DNA of 33,281 nt from positions 1 through 33,281 of the forward strand of contig JASHNV010000140.1 of assembly GCA_030041455.1 (NCBI GenBank). The letters run 5' to 3'. Made by a program: the position numbers and the translations under genes. Below the pieces are notes generated by a model. The model saw only the letters and a list, made by a program, of their open reading frames with translations, did not search any database and was not told the DNA's origin. Shown here piece after piece: positions 2,332 through 33,281 of the stretch. Numbering within the stretch: position 1 is the stretch's first letter; each line of letters starts with the position of its first letter. Source of the stretch: Spirochaetia bacterium (GTDB lineage Bacteria > Spirochaetota > Spirochaetia > DAHUYW01).

Positions 2332-3381
2332 TCACTCGGCGAGCCAGCGGTTGATGTTCTCGGCGACGAAATCGTCGTCGCTGAGCTCCGGATGGGCGGC
2401 GTACACCCGGTCGATCTCCGCCGACTGGCCCTCCGAGAGGCTCGCCTTGGGATCGAGGCACCAGGATCCCGCGAAAAGCTTCTGCCGCCTGAGGATCTCG
2501 TTGATCCCCGCGGCGGCGCCCGCGAAACCGTGGGCCGCGTCGGTCACGGCGGCGCACGCGTCGATCGCCTCGGTCTCGGCGCTCAGGAGCTCGATCGGAA
2601 GCGGGCGATTGTCCCTGATCAGGGAATGGACGTGCTTCAGGAGCTCCGCCGCCCGCGAGGTCCACACGCCCCAATGGGCGAGGAGGCCTCCGACGATCCT
2701 CGCCTGCTTGATGCCGGCCGACGTGGGGATCTTGTAGGAGGCGAGGAGGTCGACGAGGACCCGGTCGGCGCTTGACGTGTAGAGCGCGATCTCCTTTTCC
2801 TTACCGGCTTCGCAAACCGCCCGCGCGGCCTCGAGCGTTTGAAAGCGGCTGGGATGGGCGAGCGCGATTCCGACGACGTTGTCGATCTCGCAGAGGCGCC
2901 GCCAGAGCTCCCGGGAGAGCGGCCGGCCGCCGTGGCGCGCGACGATCGGCATCGCCTCGGCGACCGACGCGCAATGGGCGAGAGGCGCGGGCTCGCTCCC
3001 TCCCTCCGCGCTCGGGAGGTTCACGAGGCAGGCGTGATATCCGAGGCGATAGGCGGAGTCGGCTTCCTCGAGCGCCTGCGCCGCCGAGCTCGATATCCCG
3101 CACATCTTCAGGATCTGGCGGCCCTTGCGCTCGCACCAGCGATCGATCGTCTCCGAGGCGAGGGCGAGCAGCCTGCCGCGAACCGCGCTCTCGGGCCTCT
3201 TCGTCTCCGCCGCCTCGACCAAGATCCCTCCGACGCCCGCGTCGATGTAGTAGCGGATGACCGCGCGCTCGTGGACCTCGTCGAGCGCGCGGTCATCCGT
3301 GAGCGCGATCGGCAGGACGGGAATGACGCACCCGTCGCGGAACCCCTGCAAGACCTTGGGCGGAATCTCCTTTTTGTTCAC
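2332..3381 (-). CDS. Dihydrodipicolinate synthase-family protein lacking the catalytic lysine
   Basis: 349 residues, a TIM barrel of the DapA/NanA superfamily. The barrel start (VIPVLPIALTDD), the RYYIDAGVGGILV strand and the IDNVVGIALAHPSRF segment align with the family. In active members the last segment reads roughly GIK and that lysine forms the Schiff base; here residue 173 is Ala (codon 2863-2865, minus strand). The strand that normally carries the catalytic Tyr is shortened (MPIVARHGGRPLS) with no Tyr. As written it cannot do classical class I aldolase chemistry, so it may be a pseudoenzyme or have another role. The start is GTG at 3379-3381 with a GGAGG about 11 nt upstream. It is the last gene of the sugar operon, separated by 73 bp that may hold its own weak promoter. 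Confidence 0.75.
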   Translation of the reverse strand: MNKKEIPPKVLQGFRDGCVIPVLPIALTDDRALDEVHERAVIRYYIDAGVGGILVEAAETKRPESAVRGRLLALASETIDRWCERKGRQILKMCGISSSAAQALEEADSAYRLGYHACLVNLPSAEGGSEPAPLAHCASVAEAMPIVARHGGRPLSRELWRRLCEIDNVVGIALAHPSRFQTLEAARAVCEAGKEKEIALYTSSADRVLVDLLASYKIPTSAGIKQARIVGGLLAHWGVWTSRAAELLKHVHSLIRDNRPLPIELLSAETEAIDACAAVTDAAHGFAGAAAGINEILRRQKLFAGSWCLDPKASLSEGQSAEIDRVYAAHPELSDDDFVAENINRWLAE

Positions 3382-3412
3382 CGGACGCAGCCTCCGTTGC
3401 GCAGCCGCACCA

Positions 3413-3442
3413 AGTATGCCGCGCGCGCGAACGGCGCTTCAA
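3413..3442 (-). promoter_or_regulatory. Possible internal promoter for the DapA-like gene
   Basis: On the minus strand TTGAAG (3437-3442) and CATACT (3413-3418) are 18 bp apart, in the 73-bp gap before the DapA-like gene. Both hexamers are imperfect. Confidence 0.3.
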
Positions 3443-3454
3443 GGGGCCTCGAGG

Positions 3455-4477
3455 CTACAGCCTGAAGGCGAGCTCCTTGCGGCGGCGCGCCGAGTCGATC
3501 TCGAGCAGGCAGAGCCCGAGCGACTCGCGGGCCGACTCGCCGGTCACCACCCCCGAGGTCGCTCCCCGTTCGACGCCCGCGACGAAGTCGGCGAGCTCGT
3601 GGTAGTAGCCGTCCCCCTCGGGAAGGACGAGCGGGCTCTTCTTCCCTCCGGCGGGGTAGAGCGCGACCTTCGGCTCCTTCGAGAAGTCGAGCTCGATCGT
3701 CGCGCGCTCGAGGATGAAGAGGGCGCGCATGGTGAAGCCGAAGGAGTCCGAGGCTATCCAGCCGCCGGTCGACGAGACCGTCATCCCCGGATAGCCGTAG
3801 AGCGTCGCGATGTGCGAGATCCCCCCGTCGGGCTCGAAGACGCCGCTTGCCCTCACGGACTTCGGCCGCCCGAAGAGGTAGAGCACCATGTCGACGTCGT
3901 GGATGTGGAGGTCAAGCGCGGCGTTGCCCGACCGCTTCGAGTCGAGCGTCCAGCCGTCCCAGGCCCAACCGGGAGCGGCGGAAAAGCGCGCAAGCTCGGC
4001 GTACCGCGGAGCGCCGTACGCTCCGGAGTCGATGATGCGCTTGATCTCGGCGTAGGCGGGCCAGAAGCGAAGGCACTGCCCGACGCTGAAGAGCCTGCCG
4101 CTTTTCTTCACGGCGGCGAGAACGCGGTCGGCCTCGGCGATGGAGAGCGCGAGCGGCTTCTCGCAGAAGACGTGATAGCCCGCAGCGAGCGCTTGGATGG
4201 AGCAGGGAGCATGCTGGAAGGTGGGCAGACAGATGTCGACCACGTCGAAGCCGCCTGCGGCGAGCATCTGCGAATAGTCGCCGAACTTCCGCGCGCCTGA
4301 GAGGTCGACGAGGCCCGCCGACGTCGCGATGTTGCCGGCCGCCTCGAGGCTCGTGATCTCGGTGTTTTCCTTTCGGAGGTCGCACAGCGACACGACCTCC
4401 ACCCCCTTCAGCCTCTGGTAGACGCCGAGGTGGGTCTTCCCCATGAACCCGACGCCGGCGATCGCCACTCTCACCAT
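3455..4477 (-). CDS. Gfo/Idh/MocA-family NAD(P)-dependent oxidoreductase
   Basis: 340 residues, a cytoplasmic sugar or inositol dehydrogenase-type enzyme. The N-terminal Rossmann fold has GVGFMG at 8-13 and an acidic residue after strand 2 (LCDL), suggesting NAD preference. CEKPL at 105-109 carries the conserved lysine K107 of the family's EKP motif. DLHIHDVD at 189-196 provides the conserved Asp/His substrate-site residues. The rest is the alpha/beta C-terminal domain. Starts at the ATG 4475-4477, 15 bp after the isomerase gene, so they are co-transcribed. Next to a sugar isomerase and a CUT1 transporter it most likely oxidises a ring or keto carbon of the imported sugar; the substrate cannot be read from sequence. 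Confidence 0.9.
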   Translation of the reverse strand: MVRVAIAGVGFMGKTHLGVYQRLKGVEVVSLCDLRKENTEITSLEAAGNIATSAGLVDLSGARKFGDYSQMLAAGGFDVVDICLPTFQHAPCSIQALAAGYHVFCEKPLALSIAEADRVLAAVKKSGRLFSVGQCLRFWPAYAEIKRIIDSGAYGAPRYAELARFSAAPGWAWDGWTLDSKRSGNAALDLHIHDVDMVLYLFGRPKSVRASGVFEPDGGISHIATLYGYPGMTVSSTGGWIASDSFGFTMRALFILERATIELDFSKEPKVALYPAGGKKSPLVLPEGDGYYHELADFVAGVERGATSGVVTGESARESLGLCLLEIDSARRRKELAFRL

Positions 4478-4492
4478 GATCCCTCTCCGCTC

Positions 4493-5344
4493 CTACGGGC
4501 GCGTCGAGCGCTCGATGATCCGCATCGCGGCGATCGCCTTCTCCGCCGCGCCGAGCCTCCCGGGGACGATCTCCGCGGTGAAGGGGCCCCGGTAGCCGAG
4601 GCGGTCGAGCTCCGCCATGACCCCGGGAAAGCCGACGTCGCCCGACAGGAGATCGACGAAGCCGTCGAGCGTGCCGACCGAGACCCTGAAGTCCTTCAGG
4701 TGGACCGCCTTGATCCGCTCGCCGAGGACCCGGATCCAATCCTCCGGATGGCCGAAGAGGAGGCAGTTTCCGGTGTCGAAGTACGATCCGACGCGCTCCG
4801 AGCCGAAGGAATCGATGAAGCCCCGCATCTCGAGCGCGCTCAGGAGATAGCGATTCCAGACGTTCTCGACGGCGATGTCGACGCGAAGCCGCTCGGCGGT
4901 CGGAAGCACCCGCGCGAGCGCCTCCCTTGCCCGGCGGTCGACCTCCGGGTAGGGTTGCGGCCCGAAGCCGGGAACGAAGACCGCCGACACCATGCCGGGC
5001 AGATAGAGCAGCGTCTTCGCGCCGAGCCACGAGCAGATCTCGATGAGCCTCCGGTTCGTCTCCACGGCGCGCTCGCGCACGCCGGGATCCGGATCGGTCG
5101 GAGACTCGCCCCAGGCGAGGCCCGAGGCGACGGTGAGGAGCCTGAGGCCGTTCGCGTCGGCGGCCTTCCGCACGAGCCCGGCCTCGCGCTCGCTCGTCTC
5201 AAGCGAGAGCTCCCCCTTCGCCTCCACGGTGACCTCGAAGCAGTCGTAGCCGAGCTCCTTGGCCGCCTTGAAGGCTTCCGAGAGCCCCACGGCCGAGCCG
5301 TCCTCGCGGGCCGGAAAGGCCCAATAGTTGATCCCCTTCGTCAT
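4493..5344 (-). CDS. Sugar phosphate isomerase/epimerase (xylose-isomerase-like TIM barrel)
   Basis: 283 residues, close to the usual 270-290. It resembles the ketose 3-epimerase and L-ribulose-5-phosphate 3-epimerase (UlaE) type. The four expected divalent-metal ligands are visible: E160 in AVEN, D190 in FDTGN, H215 in HLKD and E258 in AEIVPG. HLKDFR at 215-220 is the usual family signature. The gene lies 15 bp after the second permease and 15 bp before the Gfo/Idh gene, in the middle of the operon. It probably epimerises or isomerises the substrate before or after the dehydrogenase step; which sugar is unknown. Confidence 0.9.
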   Translation of the reverse strand: MTKGINYWAFPAREDGSAVGLSEAFKAAKELGYDCFEVTVEAKGELSLETSEREAGLVRKAADANGLRLLTVASGLAWGESPTDPDPGVRERAVETNRRLIEICSWLGAKTLLYLPGMVSAVFVPGFGPQPYPEVDRRAREALARVLPTAERLRVDIAVENVWNRYLLSALEMRGFIDSFGSERVGSYFDTGNCLLFGHPEDWIRVLGERIKAVHLKDFRVSVGTLDGFVDLLSGDVGFPGVMAELDRLGYRGPFTAEIVPGRLGAAEKAIAAMRIIERSTRP

Positions 5345-5359
5345 GGTCGCGCCTCCGCG

Positions 5360-6205
5360 CTAGCCCTTCACGGCCCCGCCCGCGAGGCCCGCGACAAGCC
5401 GCTGCTGGATCACGTAGAAGAGCACGAGCACCGGGATGATGGCGAGAAAGTCCGCGGTGGCGAGGAGCTCCCATTGGCTCGACCACCGGCCGACGAAGCG
5501 GTACAAGCCGAGGGTGAGGGGCATCTTCGATTGGGTCTGGATGAACGAGAGCGCGAAGAGGAACTCGTTCCAGGCGCTGATGAACGTGTAGATCGCGGTC
5601 GTGACGAGTCCGGGAGCGGAGATCGGCAGGATGATCCGGATGACCGTCTGCGAGCGGGTCGCCCCGTCGATAAAGGCCGCCTCCTCGATCTCGACGGGAA
5701 TGCTCCGGAAGTAGCCGCTCAGCAGCCACACGCTGAAAGCCATGGTGAAGACCGCGTTGATGATGACGAGGCCGGAGTAGGTGTCGAGAAGCCCGAGCTT
5801 CGAGAAGGTCTTGAAAAGCGAGATGACGACGACGACCGGCGAGAACATCTGGACGACGAGGAAAAGGTAGAGAAAGAGCTGGCGGCCCGCGAAGCGAAGG
5901 CGCGCGATGGCGTAGGCGGCCGGGATGCTCAGGAGCAGGTTGAGGATCGTCGAGCCGACCCCGATGACGAGGCTGCTCTTGAAGTAGCCGAGGAGCTGGT
6001 ACTGCGACCAGACGATCGCGAAGTTCCTGAAGGTGACGATGTGGGGAATCCAGCGCGGAGGCGAGACGTAGACCTCCTGGCTCGTCCTGAGCATCGTCGT
6101 GATCATGACGAAAAACGGGAAGAGCATCACGAGGAGAAGGACGACGGTGAGGGCGACGGCGACGGGCTTGCCCCGGCTCCGCCACGCCGCGACGGACCCG
6201 CTCAT
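5360..6205 (-). CDS. Carbohydrate ABC transporter permease (CUT1, MalG/MsmG type)
   Basis: 281 residues, an inner-membrane BPD_transp_1 protein with about six membrane segments, the first at about 14-36. The EAA loop that contacts the ATPase is at about 174-195 (EEAAFIDGATR then LPISAPGL). The long reading frame runs upstream, but the ATG at 6203-6205 overlaps the TGA of the other permease as ATGA, which fixes the start and implies translational coupling. The operon has no ATPase gene. CUT1 systems often share an MsmK/MalK-type ATPase encoded elsewhere, so that is expected here. Confidence 0.93.
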   Translation of the reverse strand: MSGSVAAWRSRGKPVAVALTVVLLLVMLFPFFVMITTMLRTSQEVYVSPPRWIPHIVTFRNFAIVWSQYQLLGYFKSSLVIGVGSTILNLLLSIPAAYAIARLRFAGRQLFLYLFLVVQMFSPVVVVISLFKTFSKLGLLDTYSGLVIINAVFTMAFSVWLLSGYFRSIPVEIEEAAFIDGATRSQTVIRIILPISAPGLVTTAIYTFISAWNEFLFALSFIQTQSKMPLTLGLYRFVGRWSSQWELLATADFLAIIPVLVLFYVIQQRLVAGLAGGAVKG

Positions 6206-7122
6206 GACCTCCGCTCCCCGGCGAAATAGAACTTCGCGTACACGGCGCTGATCCCCGTGAGGATGAGGAACGTGACGACCGCCATCACCGACGCCTGATC
6301 GAACTTGAGATAGACGAAGGCGTACTTGTAAATGGAGGTGATGAGGATATCGGTCGTGTCGACGGGGCCGCCCGCGGTGAGGATCCAGATGACGTTGAAG
6401 TCGTTGAAGGTCCACAGCGCCGAGAGCAGCGTCGCGACGAGGACGAGGTGCCTGATGCCCGGCAGGGTGATGAACGCGAACTTTTGCACCGCGTTCACGC
6501 CGTCGATGTGGGCGGACTCGTACTGATCCTCGGGGATGCTCTTCATTCCCGCGAGGAACACGAGCGCCATGAAGGGCACCCCGATCCAGATGTCGACCCA
6601 GATCGCCGCGATGAACGCCGAGATCGGATATCCGAGCCAGACCGGCGGATTGCCCGTAAGGCCGAGCATCCGCAGCGTATGGTTGAGGAGCCCGAACTCG
6701 GGGGTGTAAACCCAGCTCCAGAGGAGAACGCTGATCGGGACCGACGAGGCCCACGGGGCGATGAACAGCATGTGGGCGACCTTCCGGCCGGGAAACTCGA
6801 CGTTGAGGAGGAGCGCGATGACCATGCCGAGCGACATCTTCACGAAGACGGCGAGCGCGGTCCAGATGAGGGACCTCCCGGTCACGCGCCAGAAGTTGCC
6901 GTCGCCGAGGACGGCGAGGAAGTTCTTAAGCCCGGCGAAATGGGTGAGCCAGCCGAGGCGGTTCGTCGTCGACAGGCTCATGAGAACGACATAGACGAGC
7001 GGGTAGATCATGAAGCCGACGAGCACGACGACCGCCGGCAGCAGGAGGAGGTACGCGAGGCGGGCCTCCGGCGCGAGAAAGCGCTGCTTGGGTGCGGTCA
7101 GGCTGTCGGCCACTTTTCTCAC
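6202..7122 (-). CDS. Carbohydrate ABC transporter permease (CUT1, MalF/UgpA type)
   Basis: 306 residues with a first membrane segment at about 23-45 and about five more. The EAA loop is at 201-221 (YESAHIDGVNAVQKF then LPG). With the other permease it forms the channel of a binding-protein-dependent sugar importer. It is separated from the binding-protein gene by 96 bp holding two perfect hairpins, then a GGGAGGGAG-type ribosome site just before the ATG. It overlaps the next permease by 4 bp. Confidence 0.93.
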   Translation of the reverse strand: MRKVADSLTAPKQRFLAPEARLAYLLLLPAVVVLVGFMIYPLVYVVLMSLSTTNRLGWLTHFAGLKNFLAVLGDGNFWRVTGRSLIWTALAVFVKMSLGMVIALLLNVEFPGRKVAHMLFIAPWASSVPISVLLWSWVYTPEFGLLNHTLRMLGLTGNPPVWLGYPISAFIAAIWVDIWIGVPFMALVFLAGMKSIPEDQYESAHIDGVNAVQKFAFITLPGIRHLVLVATLLSALWTFNDFNVIWILTAGGPVDTTDILITSIYKYAFVYLKFDQASVMAVVTFLILTGISAVYAKFYFAGERRS

Positions 7123-7138
7123 TCCCTCCCATGGCCTC

Positions 7139-7167
7139 GCCTGCCGGGGCGGACAGCCCCGGCAGGC
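7139..7167 (-). repeat. Intergenic hairpin 2 between binding protein and permease genes
   Basis: A 12-bp perfect stem (7139-7150 with 7156-7167, GCCTGCCGGGGC and its complement) closes a 5-nt loop. It lies close upstream of the first permease's ribosome site in the transcript. With the neighbouring hairpin it resembles REP-type structures between malE and malF that protect the upstream message. Confidence 0.8.
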
Positions 7168-7175
7168 GGGATCGA

Positions 7176-7202
7176 AGGCAGGCAGGGCGACCCTGCCTGC
7201 CT
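7176..7202 (-). repeat. Intergenic hairpin 1 downstream of binding protein gene
   Basis: A 12-bp perfect stem (AGGCAGGCAGGG at 7176-7187, complement at 7191-7202) with a 3-nt loop, 16 bp after the binding-protein stop codon. It has no U-tract on the transcribed strand, so it is more likely a 3'-protecting or processing structure than a full terminator. Confidence 0.8.
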
Positions 7203-7218
7203 GAAGGATTCCAAAAGG

Positions 7219-8484
7219 CTACTGAATGTTGTTGATCTTGTCGATCTGCGCCGCCGCGGCGTCGAGCGCCGCCTTGGGGGTCGCCTGGCCGAGGTACACC
7301 TTGGAGATGGCGTCCCAGATCGCGTCTTGGCACTGGTCCCAGGTCGCAATCAAGGGCCAGCCCTTCGCGTGCTGAGCCGCGACGCCCATCGCCTTGTACA
7401 TCGGAGTGTTGAAGGCCGGCAGGCTCGAGGCCGACTCGGTCACGGGCGGGAAGCCCGCAAGCTGGTCGAACTTGCCTTTCCACTCCGGCTTGTACCAGAA
7501 ATCGATGAACTTGCCCGCCGTCGGGAGCGCCTTGCCGCCCGAGAAGAACGCGATCGAGTCGGTGATGATGAGCGGGGTCGACGGATGACCGGCGAAGCCC
7601 GGGATCTGCGCGTACGTCACGGGGAAGGTGGAGCCCGCCTGCTTCATGGCGGAATCGACCCAGGCGCCGATCATGACGTAGGCGGCCTTGCCGGCGTAGA
7701 ACACCGGGTGCGCCTCCATGCGGGTCTGGGCGAGGTAGCCGGGCTGCACGACCTTGTCGACGTTCGCGAGCTTGTTCATGAAGGTGAGCGCCTGGACGCC
7801 GGCGTCGGAGTTGACGGTCGACTTGCCGAAGGAACCGTCGGGGTTCTTCGCGAAGAAATCGCCGCCCGCGGCGTAGAAGTAGTAGGCGAAGTCGGTGAGC
7901 TCGGTGTTCTTCTTGCCGGGCATGATCAAGCCGTAGTGGTCCGGCGGCTTGTTCGCCGCGATCGCGTCCTTCTCGAGGTCTTCCATGGTCTGGGGAACGT
8001 CGGTCGCGAGGCTGTTGTTGATCGCGAGGAAGCGCGCCCCCGCGGCGACCGGAATGCCCATGAGCTTGCCGTTGACGACTCCCTCCTTCGTGCCCGGAAT
8101 GATGTCGGCGAGGGTATCCTTGCCGACGTACAGCGTCGGGTCGGCGAGCTGCTTCTCGCCGTAGAACTCGAGGAGCCATCGGGTGCCGATGATCGAGATG
8201 TCCGGCGGAGCGCCGCCCGCGAGGGCCGTGGTCAGCTTGTCGTGAAGCTGGTCCCAGGGAACCGAGACGATGTCGATCTGGTTGTTCGGATCGACCTTGT
8301 TGAACGCGGCCTCAAGGCTCGCGCGGTAGTCCTCGGTGACGCCGTCGTACTGCGCCCAAAAGAAGGTCGCCGTGGCTTTCGCGACCGGCTTGCCGCATGA
8401 CGCGAGCGCCATGGTCAGGACCGCGAGCAGACCCGCGAGCGGCAGCGCCCACGAAAACCGTTTCGCGCCTCGTGTAATTCTCAT
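7219..8484 (-). CDS. Extracellular sugar-binding lipoprotein of CUT1 ABC transporter
   Basis: 421 residues, SBP_bac_1 family. The signal peptide ends in lipobox LASC with the lipidated Cys at residue 30, so the protein is membrane-anchored. Family features include the segment with PPDISIIGTRW and the C-terminal repeat of aromatic helices (FIDFWYKPEW). The ATG at 8482-8484 is preceded by an AAGGAGTGAGG-like ribosome site. It sits directly upstream of the two permeases and delivers the substrate to them. Strong hairpins on both sides of the gene suggest its mRNA is specially stabilised, as usual for binding proteins made in excess over permeases. Confidence 0.93.
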   Translation of the reverse strand: MRITRGAKRFSWALPLAGLLAVLTMALASCGKPVAKATATFFWAQYDGVTEDYRASLEAAFNKVDPNNQIDIVSVPWDQLHDKLTTALAGGAPPDISIIGTRWLLEFYGEKQLADPTLYVGKDTLADIIPGTKEGVVNGKLMGIPVAAGARFLAINNSLATDVPQTMEDLEKDAIAANKPPDHYGLIMPGKKNTELTDFAYYFYAAGGDFFAKNPDGSFGKSTVNSDAGVQALTFMNKLANVDKVVQPGYLAQTRMEAHPVFYAGKAAYVMIGAWVDSAMKQAGSTFPVTYAQIPGFAGHPSTPLIITDSIAFFSGGKALPTAGKFIDFWYKPEWKGKFDQLAGFPPVTESASSLPAFNTPMYKAMGVAAQHAKGWPLIATWDQCQDAIWDAISKVYLGQATPKAALDAAAAQIDKINNIQ

Positions 8485-8510
8485 ACCTCACTCCTTGACG
8501 AAATTCTCAA

Positions 8511-8532
8511 ACAGGCGCCAAAAGGAGCCTGT
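8511..8532 (-). repeat. Leader stem-loop upstream of binding protein gene
   Basis: ACAGGC at 8511-8516 pairs with GCCTGT at 8527-8532, with two more G-C pairs inside after one mismatch and an A/T-only loop. It lies 27 nt upstream of the binding-protein start codon. Confidence 0.4.
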
Positions 8533-8550
8533 CCTCTCTTCTTTCAACGA

Positions 8551-8590
8551 AGCTGCGGCGCGGAGCTTAATGCATCTCCGCGCCGCAGCT
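8551..8590 (-). repeat. 15-bp perfect hairpin spanning the stop codon of the NagB-like gene
   Basis: Arms 8551-8565 and 8576-8590 are perfectly complementary (AGCTGCGGCGCGGAG on the plus strand). The 10-nt loop 8566-8575 contains the TAA of the NagB-like gene. No T-tract follows on the minus strand, so simple intrinsic termination is unlikely. A stability, processing or attenuation role is inferred. Confidence 0.85.
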
Positions 8591-9496
8591 TCCGATGCCC
8601 GGCCGATAGAAGTTGAAGCGGACATCGGGATGGTCGGCGAGCAGCGACATCGGCACCGAGGAGTCCACCACCCGCTTCGCGAGCATGAGCGTGGTGAGAC
8701 GCATGCCGAACGGGTTGTCGTGGTTGCCCGCCTGCCAGATGGAGACCGTCTTCGCCTTCCAGGTCTCCCGGGGACCGACCGTGAGCGCCTGCGAGGGGAT
8801 CTCGCCGAGCGCGCCTCCGGCGGAGGTCCGCGCGTTCTGCATGACGGTCATCGGATGGAGCCGGACGACCCGCGCGCCGAGCGCGCGGTACTCCTCGGCC
8901 GTGGGCGGAGCGTCCCGGTAGGCGCCTTCCCGGGGAAGGGGATCGTTGAACGCCCAGTGCTTCACGTCGCCCTGGCCGCCCTGCATGATGAGGCAGCGCG
9001 CCTCGTCGTAGGACCTCGAGTACTCGGCGACGTTGTCGGCGCGCAGGAAATGGAGGTGGGAGTCGCTCATGCGCCGGCGCTTGTCGATGCGCTTGAAGCA
9101 GAGGTCGAGATCGGCCTTCGCGAAGCTCAGCGGATGCGCGAGGGGAAGCTCCTTGCCGTCGCGGTACCACTCGTCCATCGCCCAGAAGTGGCCCTCGCGG
9201 ACGTCGATCTCGAGGTCGTTCACGATCCGCGCGACGAGCGGAAGCTGCTCGGTCGGCCCGATCGGGCCGCAGATGCCCGCGGGCTCGCTCTCGGTGGCAT
9301 GGCGCCAGGTCCACACGTACTCGAGCGCCTCGGCGGTGTAGAACTCCTCGAGGGTGTCGAAGAAGCGAACCTCGAACCCCGGTCGGGCGAGCGCGAGGAG
9401 GTCCTCCGCGGTGAGCTTCGCGGCGTCACGGAGGAGCTCGTCGTCGAGCGTCGTGTAGTCCCACCACCCTTCAGCGACCGTGCTCTGCCGTCTCAC
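8567..9496 (-). CDS. Glucosamine-6-phosphate deaminase/isomerase-like protein (NagB/RpiA/Pgl family)
   Basis: 309 residues, about 40 longer than typical NagB. NagB-like motifs are recognisable but altered: MDEW at 107-110 (for MDEY, which carries the catalytic Asp), [14 protein letters not shown] at 173-186 (for GxGxDGHIAFNEP; H180 in place of the catalytic His) and ALTVG at 237-241 (the TxG phosphate-loop segment). It is probably a ring-opening aldose-ketose isomerase or deaminase acting on a sugar phosphate other than GlcN6P. The start is GTG at 9494-9496, supported by AAGGAGGG 3-4 nt before it. It is the first gene of the structural operon, right behind the promoter and operator at 9506-9562. 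Its 3' end forms a strong hairpin. Confidence 0.8.
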
Positions 9497-31846: not shown

Positions 31847-33214
31847 TCAGCTCCGCTTCATGAAGTAGGCCTTCGGCCTCACGAAGGCCCGGATGCCTGC
31901 GGGGGAGAGCGTGACGCCGAGCCCCGAGCTCCGCCTCCCGGACCACGGCAGGTAGGGGCTCACGCGGTTGCACGAGTTCCAGTAGGCCGTTCCGACATCG
32001 AGCCGGTCGAGCAAACGCTTGGCGCGCGCCTCGTCGCGCGAGAAGACGAAGGCGGCGACGCCGTAGTCGGTGTCCTGCATGAGCTCGGCGGCCTCCTCGT
32101 CGTCGGAGACCCGCTCGATGCCGATCACCGGCCCGTAGATCTCCTCCCGCATGATGTCCATGGCGTGGCTCGCGTCGGCGATCACCGTGGGCTCGAAAAA
32201 GAAGCCCTCCCGCTCGATCGCCTTGCCCCCCGCGAGGAGACGCGCCCCCTTCGAGAGGGCGTCCTCGACGAGCCCGGCGAGGTGCTCCCTCTGGCGCTCC
32301 TTGGCGACCGGTCCGATATCCGTCGCCGTATCGGCGGGATCGCCGACCGCGAGGCTCCTCACGCCCTCGACGAAGGCGGCGAGGAAGTCGTCGTAGATCG
32401 AAGATTGAACGTAGATGCGCTCGATCGAGCTGTAGCTCTGGCCGTTGTTCGTGAAGGCGCCGCCCACGGCGAGACGAGCCGCCCGGGAGACCTCCTCGAC
32501 GTCCTCCATCACGTAGAGCGGGTTTTTCCCGGAAAGATCGAGGTGAATCGGAGCGATCCTCGATCGCACGCGCTCGAGCACCGCGCGTCCGGTCGTCGCC
32601 GATCCCGCGAAAAAGTAGCCGTGAAGCTCGGCTTCCGCCACGAGCCGCCCGGTCGAGCCTCCGCCCAAGACGGCCTGGAGGGCGCTCGACGGCACACCCG
32701 CCTCGTAGAGCAGGCGCTTGATCTCGACGCCGCTTAAGGTGGCGTACTCCGACGGCTTGTAGAGCACGGCGTTGCCGGCGATGAGGCCGGGGACGATCAC
32801 CCCCGTCGCCGCGAGGTAGGGGAACTCCCACGAGGAGATGACGCCCACGACGCCGAGCGGCTCGTACCGGACGCTCTCGGTCGTCTCTCCGTCGGCGATG
32901 ATGAGCTCCGAGGAGAGCGACTTTTGGGAATGTTCGAGAAAGTACAGCGTCCGTCCGCGCGCGGCGTAGATCTCCTCGGTCGACTGCCTGAGGGGCTTGC
33001 CGGTTTCCTGGGTCAGCTGCCGCGCGAGGGGCTCGATACGGGAGCCGAGCAGCTGGTGAAAATTGCGGACGGCTTCGATTCGGGCTTCGAACGGGACCGC
33101 TCGCCAGCGCCGCTGCCCGGCAAGCAGCGTCCGGCGCTTGCTCTCGACGCTCTCTAGGTCGTCCTCGACCGCTTCCGCGATGGCTCGGCCGGTCGTTGGG
33201 TTGACGATTTTCAT
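31847..33214 (-). CDS. Aldehyde dehydrogenase-family protein with substituted catalytic residues
   Basis: 455 residues, full ALDH fold. Cofactor-site features remain (YKPSEYA with the NAD-binding Lys, GSATTGRAV, EEIYGPV). Three catalytic positions are changed. The oxyanion Asn of PWNFP is Glu130 (SSWEFP). The general base Glu is Asp226 (HLDLSGKNP). The catalytic Cys of GQxC is Tyr261 (NNGQSYSSIER, codon 32432-32434, minus strand). The spacing between the three (96 and 35 residues) matches the normal enzyme, so the alignment is firm. The frame is intact, arguing for a kept pseudoenzyme or a different chemistry, not a dead pseudogene. The start is ATG 33214; GTG 33235 would be leaderless from the -10 at 33244-33249. 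It is convergent with the DUF1295 gene, with 14 bp between them. Confidence 0.85.
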   Translation of the reverse strand: MKIVNPTTGRAIAEAVEDDLESVESKRRTLLAGQRRWRAVPFEARIEAVRNFHQLLGSRIEPLARQLTQETGKPLRQSTEEIYAARGRTLYFLEHSQKSLSSELIIADGETTESVRYEPLGVVGVISSWEFPYLAATGVIVPGLIAGNAVLYKPSEYATLSGVEIKRLLYEAGVPSSALQAVLGGGSTGRLVAEAELHGYFFAGSATTGRAVLERVRSRIAPIHLDLSGKNPLYVMEDVEEVSRAARLAVGGAFTNNGQSYSSIERIYVQSSIYDDFLAAFVEGVRSLAVGDPADTATDIGPVAKERQREHLAGLVEDALSKGARLLAGGKAIEREGFFFEPTVIADASHAMDIMREEIYGPVIGIERVSDDEEAAELMQDTDYGVAAFVFSRDEARAKRLLDRLDVGTAYWNSCNRVSPYLPWSGRRSSGLGVTLSPAGIRAFVRPKAYFMKRS

Positions 33215-33243
33215 AATTGCGGGGGATTCCGCCACGGCGCTTC

Positions 33244-33249
33244 ATTGTA
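33244..33249 (-). promoter_or_regulatory. Possible -10 box of the ALDH-like gene
   Basis: TACAAT on the minus strand, 30-35 bp before the ATG at 33214 and 8 bp before an in-frame GTG at 33235. The -35 region is weak and lies near the window edge. Confidence 0.4.
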
Positions 33250-33281
33250 GCGCATTACGGTCGAAAACGGTAGCGAAGGCC

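Follow-up and report, generated by a model that had tools for sequence, protein, structure and literature searches.

The window, i.e. the complete stretch of 33,281 nucleotides that was analysed, is one whole contig of the 3.39 Mb draft genome G000 of a Spirochaetia bacterium (199 contigs, 95% complete). At its end it carries, on the minus strand, a gene for a predicted aldehyde dehydrogenase (ALDH) fold protein in which catalytic residues of ALDHs are replaced. The preliminary description had the coordinates of this gene right and gave no strand; the plus-strand translation of 31847-33214 is no protein. The features are as follows (Asn169, Glu268 and Cys302 in the numbering of human ALDH2; Glu130, Asp226 and Tyr261 counted from the ATG at 33214):

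31847 to 33214, minus strand: gene of the ALDH-fold protein (PF00171), 455 amino acids from the ATG at 33214, or 462 from a GTG at 33235
33085 to 33281, no strand: end of the contig; by sequence comparison, these 197 bases recur unchanged where contig C193 starts (L054 1-197)
32825 to 32827, minus strand: Glu130 codon GAG (residue 137 in the 462-amino-acid numbering) at the position of catalytic Asn169; SSWEFP, versus SAWNYP in active relatives
32747 to 32758, minus strand: KPSE cofactor motif, kept (equivalents of Lys192 and Glu195, residues 160-163 of 462), by alignment
32606 to 32608, minus strand: Ala at the otherwise conserved Thr244 (residue 210 of 462), directly before the GS..TG cofactor motif
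32537 to 32539, minus strand: Asp226 codon (233 in the 462-amino-acid numbering) at the position of catalytic Glu268; HLDLSGK versus QLELGGK
32531 to 32533, minus strand: Ser at the otherwise conserved Gly270 (residue 235 of 462), two residues after Asp226
32432 to 32434, minus strand: Tyr261 codon TAC (268 in the 462-amino-acid numbering) at the position of catalytic Cys302; NNGQSYSS versus NxGQSCCS/A
32141 to 32143, minus strand: equivalent of the cofactor-ribose Glu399, kept (residue 365 of 462, EEIYGPV), by alignment
32135 to 32137, minus strand: Tyr at the otherwise conserved Phe401 (residue 367 of 462), from the conserved-column alignment

The upstream in-frame GTG would extend the open reading frame (31847-33235, minus strand) by seven residues; the starts of homologues align with the ATG at 33214 and not with the GTG at 33235. 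The frame contains neither stops nor frameshifts, and a profile search matched PF00171 over the full length (392 bits, profile positions 8-459 of 461), so that the full-length, unbroken ALDH frame of 455 residues described earlier holds. GC contents at the three codon positions (0.66/0.47/0.89) are similar to those of neighbouring genes. There is a single PF00171 match within the 455 amino acids, and an extra C-terminal ALDH-like domain of the ALDH16 type is absent. The protein is about 30% like aminoaldehyde, betaine-aldehyde and succinic-semialdehyde dehydrogenases and reached the cut-off of none among the 25 NCBIfam models listed. Its AlphaFold (AF2) model, computed from a 12-row alignment of remote ALDHs, has a mean pLDDT of 86.5 and a pTM of 0.87 and superimposes on ALDH crystal structures, NAD-bound ones included, with a TM of ~0.93; an ALDH fold is thus predicted with confidence. 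By this modelled fold and by the descent read from its sequence, the protein is a member of the PF00171 superfamily.

A DUF1295 gene converges on the ALDH gene at a distance of 15 bases. On the other side, the identity of 197 bases with contig C193 allows the upstream neighbour, a chemoreceptor gene, to be read on that contig: beyond the overlap, C193 carries genes for a dCache chemoreceptor and for a DnaJ-like protein and, by reading, one that resembles phosphoenolpyruvate carboxylase. A partial match of 98% on C193, considered as a second copy, was dismissed; it is the contig-end overlap itself, and the 2% is the start codon, Val versus Met. The neighbours (DUF1295, chemoreceptor) offer no functional lead and there is no operon partner. 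No RNA family and no tRNA were found in the window. Elsewhere in it (2332-9496, minus strand) lies a cluster that by reading resembles sugar catabolism and uptake: a dihydrodipicolinate-synthase-like gene, an NAD oxidoreductase, a sugar isomerase, an ABC transporter and a binding protein.

In active ALDHs, Cys302 is the nucleophile, Glu268 the general base and Asn169 stabilises the oxyanion. Alignment of the motifs to ALDHs bears out the earlier reading that these three are replaced by Tyr261, Asp226 and Glu130, respectively. The corresponding motifs (WN.P, E-LG and GQ.C) are kept in ~50 other full ALDHs sampled, excepting one protein (L069, see below) and a single D for E (L027). In the ALDH route, a Cys thiol is required to form the thiohemiacetal and the thioester (established mechanism; PMC8160307); as this thiol is absent, the window protein should have no ALDH activity, and on its sequence the loss of thiol-based catalysis is well supported. 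Four further replacements had escaped the preliminary description: those of Thr244, Gly270 and Phe401 and a Leu to Val exchange in the conserved YGL motif (taken as Leu427). The NAD(P)-fold residues Lys192, Glu195, Gly245-Ser246 (equivalents kept in AGSATTG) and Glu399 are present, while the pocket residues Thr244, Gly270, Phe401 and Leu427 have become Ala, Ser, Tyr and Val. Binding of NAD(H) is plausible given the kept ribose and phosphate contacts and uncertain given the altered nicotinamide pocket, where the changes at Thr244, Gly270 and Phe401 may have altered or abolished it.

To quantify the pattern, columns with at least 95% conservation in an alignment with active ALDHs were defined as conserved (n=37). 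The window protein keeps 30/37; the seven changed columns are Asn169, Thr244, Glu268, Gly270, Cys302, Phe401 and the Leu of YGL. Changes hit 7/13 catalytic or nicotinamide-pocket columns versus 0/24 others (p 1.7e-4, to be taken as indicative as the pocket list was named after the changes had been seen; p = 0.002 if Leu427 is placed outside the pocket); we take the listed columns to be those that form the catalytic site and the nicotinamide pocket in ALDH structures. Structural Gly and Pro residues are kept. Judged by its sequence, the protein is a pseudoenzyme in the sense of an otherwise intact homologue from which the catalytic residues are absent. An assembly or consensus error that mimics such a loss might be suspected in a draft genome and next to a contig end, and is extremely improbable here: there are seven separate changes at conserved positions, Asn to Glu needs at least two bases, the frame is intact and the 197-base overlap of the contig ends is identical, though outside the catalytic codons. 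A miscalled version of a known gene is likewise dismissed, the best match having just 47% identity.

The same pattern could reflect a rebuilt active site. The replacements are specific to the pocket and mostly polar (Glu, Asp, Tyr, Ser), many pocket positions that are invariant in the clade have changed together and the ribose-phosphate cofactor residues are preserved; NAD(H) might still bind and Glu130, Asp226 and Tyr261 catalyse another reaction, for example a carbonyl reduction in which the Tyr donates the proton. We know of no precedent for such chemistry in PF00171, no adjoining gene hints at a substrate and no relatives preserving the Glu/Asp/Tyr triad were found, so that we rate this version as a long shot. 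Slightly better odds, still poor ones, go to the wider proposal that the site (Glu/Asp/Tyr, with Ser, Ala and Tyr as neighbours) was rebuilt either for an NAD(H)-dependent reaction of a new kind or for dedicated dinucleotide sensing.

A search of 393 genomes of the phylum returned 14 genes that are 40-47% identical to the window protein, all from two families of that phylum (f60 and f73), and no relative above 47%. Glu and Cys are kept in all 14 of these nearest relatives, and Asn in all that cover its region. They form what we call the active clade (L056-L068, L072) and resemble the window protein in length, in full-length homology and in the motifs KPSE, GS..TG and EE.xGPV; they differ in having Asn/Glu/Cys and pathway genes, whereas the window protein has Glu/Asp/Tyr and stands alone. 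The genus, family and order of the window genome consist of two genomes. The second of these, the sister genome, has no orthologue of the window ALDH: another plus-strand open frame directly follows the shared DUF1295 gene (L147, G001:C233), with the contig ending ~245 bases on, and the ALDH gene is absent at this spot. Once the genus is set aside, the best matches among 395 genomes of the class reach 33-35% only; genome contigs scanned by exact 8-residue patterns gave only ALDHs of 24-32%, plasmids a best match of at most 37%, viral contigs no match and phage records ordinary ALDHs only.

In a phylogenetic tree, the window protein, its 14 relatives and a protein of genome G534 form one group with support of 99/97. 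The end branch of the window protein measures 1.0-1.6 substitutions per site, compared with 0.07-0.4 for the majority of the active relatives. Another tree, which included a remote outgroup, was discarded, as long branches attracted each other, and was rebuilt without outgroup. The preliminary description had held that close homologues all having Cys would point to a recent inactivation and refute its reading. Only half of this applies: the homologues do all have Cys, but they are not close; at only 40-47% identity, the loss can be dated neither as recent nor as old.

The genes of most active relatives lie alongside all or some of the genes for an iron-containing alcohol dehydrogenase (Fe-ADH, PF00465), a glutamine-synthetase-like (GS-like) ligase (PF00120) and a gamma-glutamyl hydrolase of the C26 type (PF07722); in some genomes of active carriers these partners sit elsewhere. 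Published gamma-glutamylation gene sets consist of PF00120, PF00465 and PF00171 members plus an amidohydrolase (PMC9397018 Table 2; PMC6529630), and gamma-glutamylation of ethanolamine is reported in Chromohalobacter and Streptomyces (PMC9397018, PMC6529630). Gene content and these analogues suggest that the gene set of the relatives serves a pathway of gamma-glutamylated amines. As polyamine pathways resemble ethanolamine gamma-glutamylation, ethanolamine is just one candidate for the substrate of the relatives. The C26 hydrolase match of one active carrier (L113, G522:C9:11856-12605) was reported with one in-frame TGA. Sets of GS-like ligase, Fe-ADH and ALDH were also seen in L086 (G174, of the window's class) and L085 (G466, of the phylum), with a different active ALDH subtype that has the motif GQSCCG and is 33-35% identical to the window protein.

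The draft genome of the window has no orthologue of the Fe-ADH, the GS-like ligase or the C26 hydrolase and only generic members of these families: the best scores are 111 bits for Fe-ADH (versus 287-865 in active carriers), 85 bits for the GS-like ligase (versus 272-1073) and 20 bits for C26 (versus 88-616). Orthologues of all three are likewise missing from G534. An Fe-ADH orthologue is present in 13/13 active carriers with genomes of reasonable size and in 0/2 inactive ones (Fisher p 0.0095, uncorrected for kinship and with two inactive genomes); the fragment genome G567 (0.9 Mb) is without Fe-ADH and counting it in gives a p of 0.025, again uncorrected for kinship. The absence of the partner genes is a likely cause of the loss of catalysis, and the same association is seen in G534; as the draft is 95% complete, a gap in it might conceal a partner gene that seems to be absent.

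Apart from the window genome, a Cys-less member of the clade was found in G534 only. Its protein L069 (L084:8001-9371, minus strand) is intact and has Cys replaced by Arg and Asn by Asp, with the general Glu kept. It has lost cofactor residues (KPGV, QDLRGP), and 12/37 conserved columns are changed, cofactor and some structural residues among them. The active clade has 133 invariant positions, of which the window protein keeps 106 and the G534 protein 80. A TAG reported inside L069 was found to lie outside the gene. L069 is nearest to a protein of G519 (44%), with which it shares a STAS-domain neighbour, and groups with L059/L060 (98/93), with the window protein outside that group. A tree that joins the two Cys-less proteins is not rejected (AU p 0.16 and 0.20), both branches being long; tree and synteny favour separate losses, which these probably are.

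A relic in slow decay, its pathway lost, its constraint relaxed and its frame not yet broken, would account for part of these data, namely the long end branch, the missing pathway partners, the lack of the ALDH gene at the corresponding position of the sister genome and the state of L069, with cofactor and structural columns changed. Decay alone would be expected to strike Gly, Pro and cofactor residues as well, but in the window protein the conserved-column changes are confined to the active site, with 24/24 non-pocket columns intact, and the frame is unbroken with normal codon composition. We therefore consider a decaying relic rather unlikely, if the strongest of the competing explanations. 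In simulations without selection (substitutions only), frames remained stop-free in 6% of runs at 20% protein divergence and in <1% at 30%. The intact frame, the codon GC and the rarity of stop-free simulations thus argue for selection along most of the branch, some of which may have followed the loss of catalysis.

The explanation that we favour, with some reserve, is that of an ALDH-derived pseudoenzyme that was cut off from its pathway and retained as a binding or regulatory protein. The ancestor would have been an active ALDH in a pathway that gamma-glutamylates an amine or an amino-alcohol: the GS-like ligase attaches glutamate, the Fe-ADH produces an aldehyde, which the ALDH then oxidises, and the C26 hydrolase sets the product free. 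The lineage of the window would have come to hold the ALDH gene alone, by loss of the partners or by transfer without them. With the substrate supply gone, catalysis would no longer have been selected, and Asn, Glu and Cys together with their pocket neighbours would have been replaced, the fold and the cofactor ribose and phosphate residues being preserved. Most likely, the protein folds, assembles into oligomers of the ALDH type and takes up NAD(H), or some other ligand in its pocket, with no turnover. We infer its ligand binding, oligomerisation, role and current selection. The idea of a retained pseudoenzyme had already been put forward in the preliminary description; intact frame, normal codon composition and the confinement of conserved-column changes to the active site agree with it, while retention after the loss is something that we infer. 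The sensor or scaffold role and the altered chemistry that the preliminary description suggested are conjectural.

A regulatory subunit in mixed tetramers with an active ALDH would be a variant of such a role: ALDHs are oligomers and inactive ALDH2 subunits affect active ones (PMC10211241). However, the only further members of PF00171 detected in the genome, an AdhE-like protein and an ALDH of the CoA-acylating type, are both remote, and the draft contains no active paralogue of this clade. A stand-alone binding role therefore fits better, and mixed tetramers seem very unlikely.

Pseudo-ALDHs as such are already known. Human ALDH16A1 is a member of the ALDH superfamily that lacks the entire catalytic triad (PMC10650815, PMC8160307); it differs by its large extra C-terminal domain from the window protein, which is bacterial, single-domain and of normal ALDH length. 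Cephalopod omega-crystallin has an ALDH fold, is reported to be enzymatically inactive and has a non-enzymatic role (PMC6397165), but it is an animal lens and skin protein with no tie to bacterial gamma-glutamylation. The gamma-glutamyl aldehyde dehydrogenase of ethanolamine utilisation (SCO1612; the PF00171 member of Chromohalobacter salexigens) belongs to a gene set that matches that of the active relatives (PMC9397018, PMC6529630); an active role is proposed for it and its set has an amidohydrolase, while the hydrolase of the relatives studied here is of the C26 type and the catalytic residues are gone from the window protein. ALDH16A1 and animal crystallins were the only catalytically dead ALDHs found in the open-licence literature. 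Bacterial pseudoenzymes of the ALDH superfamily thus seem to be little described, and the bacterial form reported here is new. Two genomes of one phylum have Cys-less members of the same ALDH clade, with the partners missing in both, and provide a concrete case of the fates open to an enzyme whose pathway is gone: it may decay, be kept as a binding protein or turn to new chemistry.
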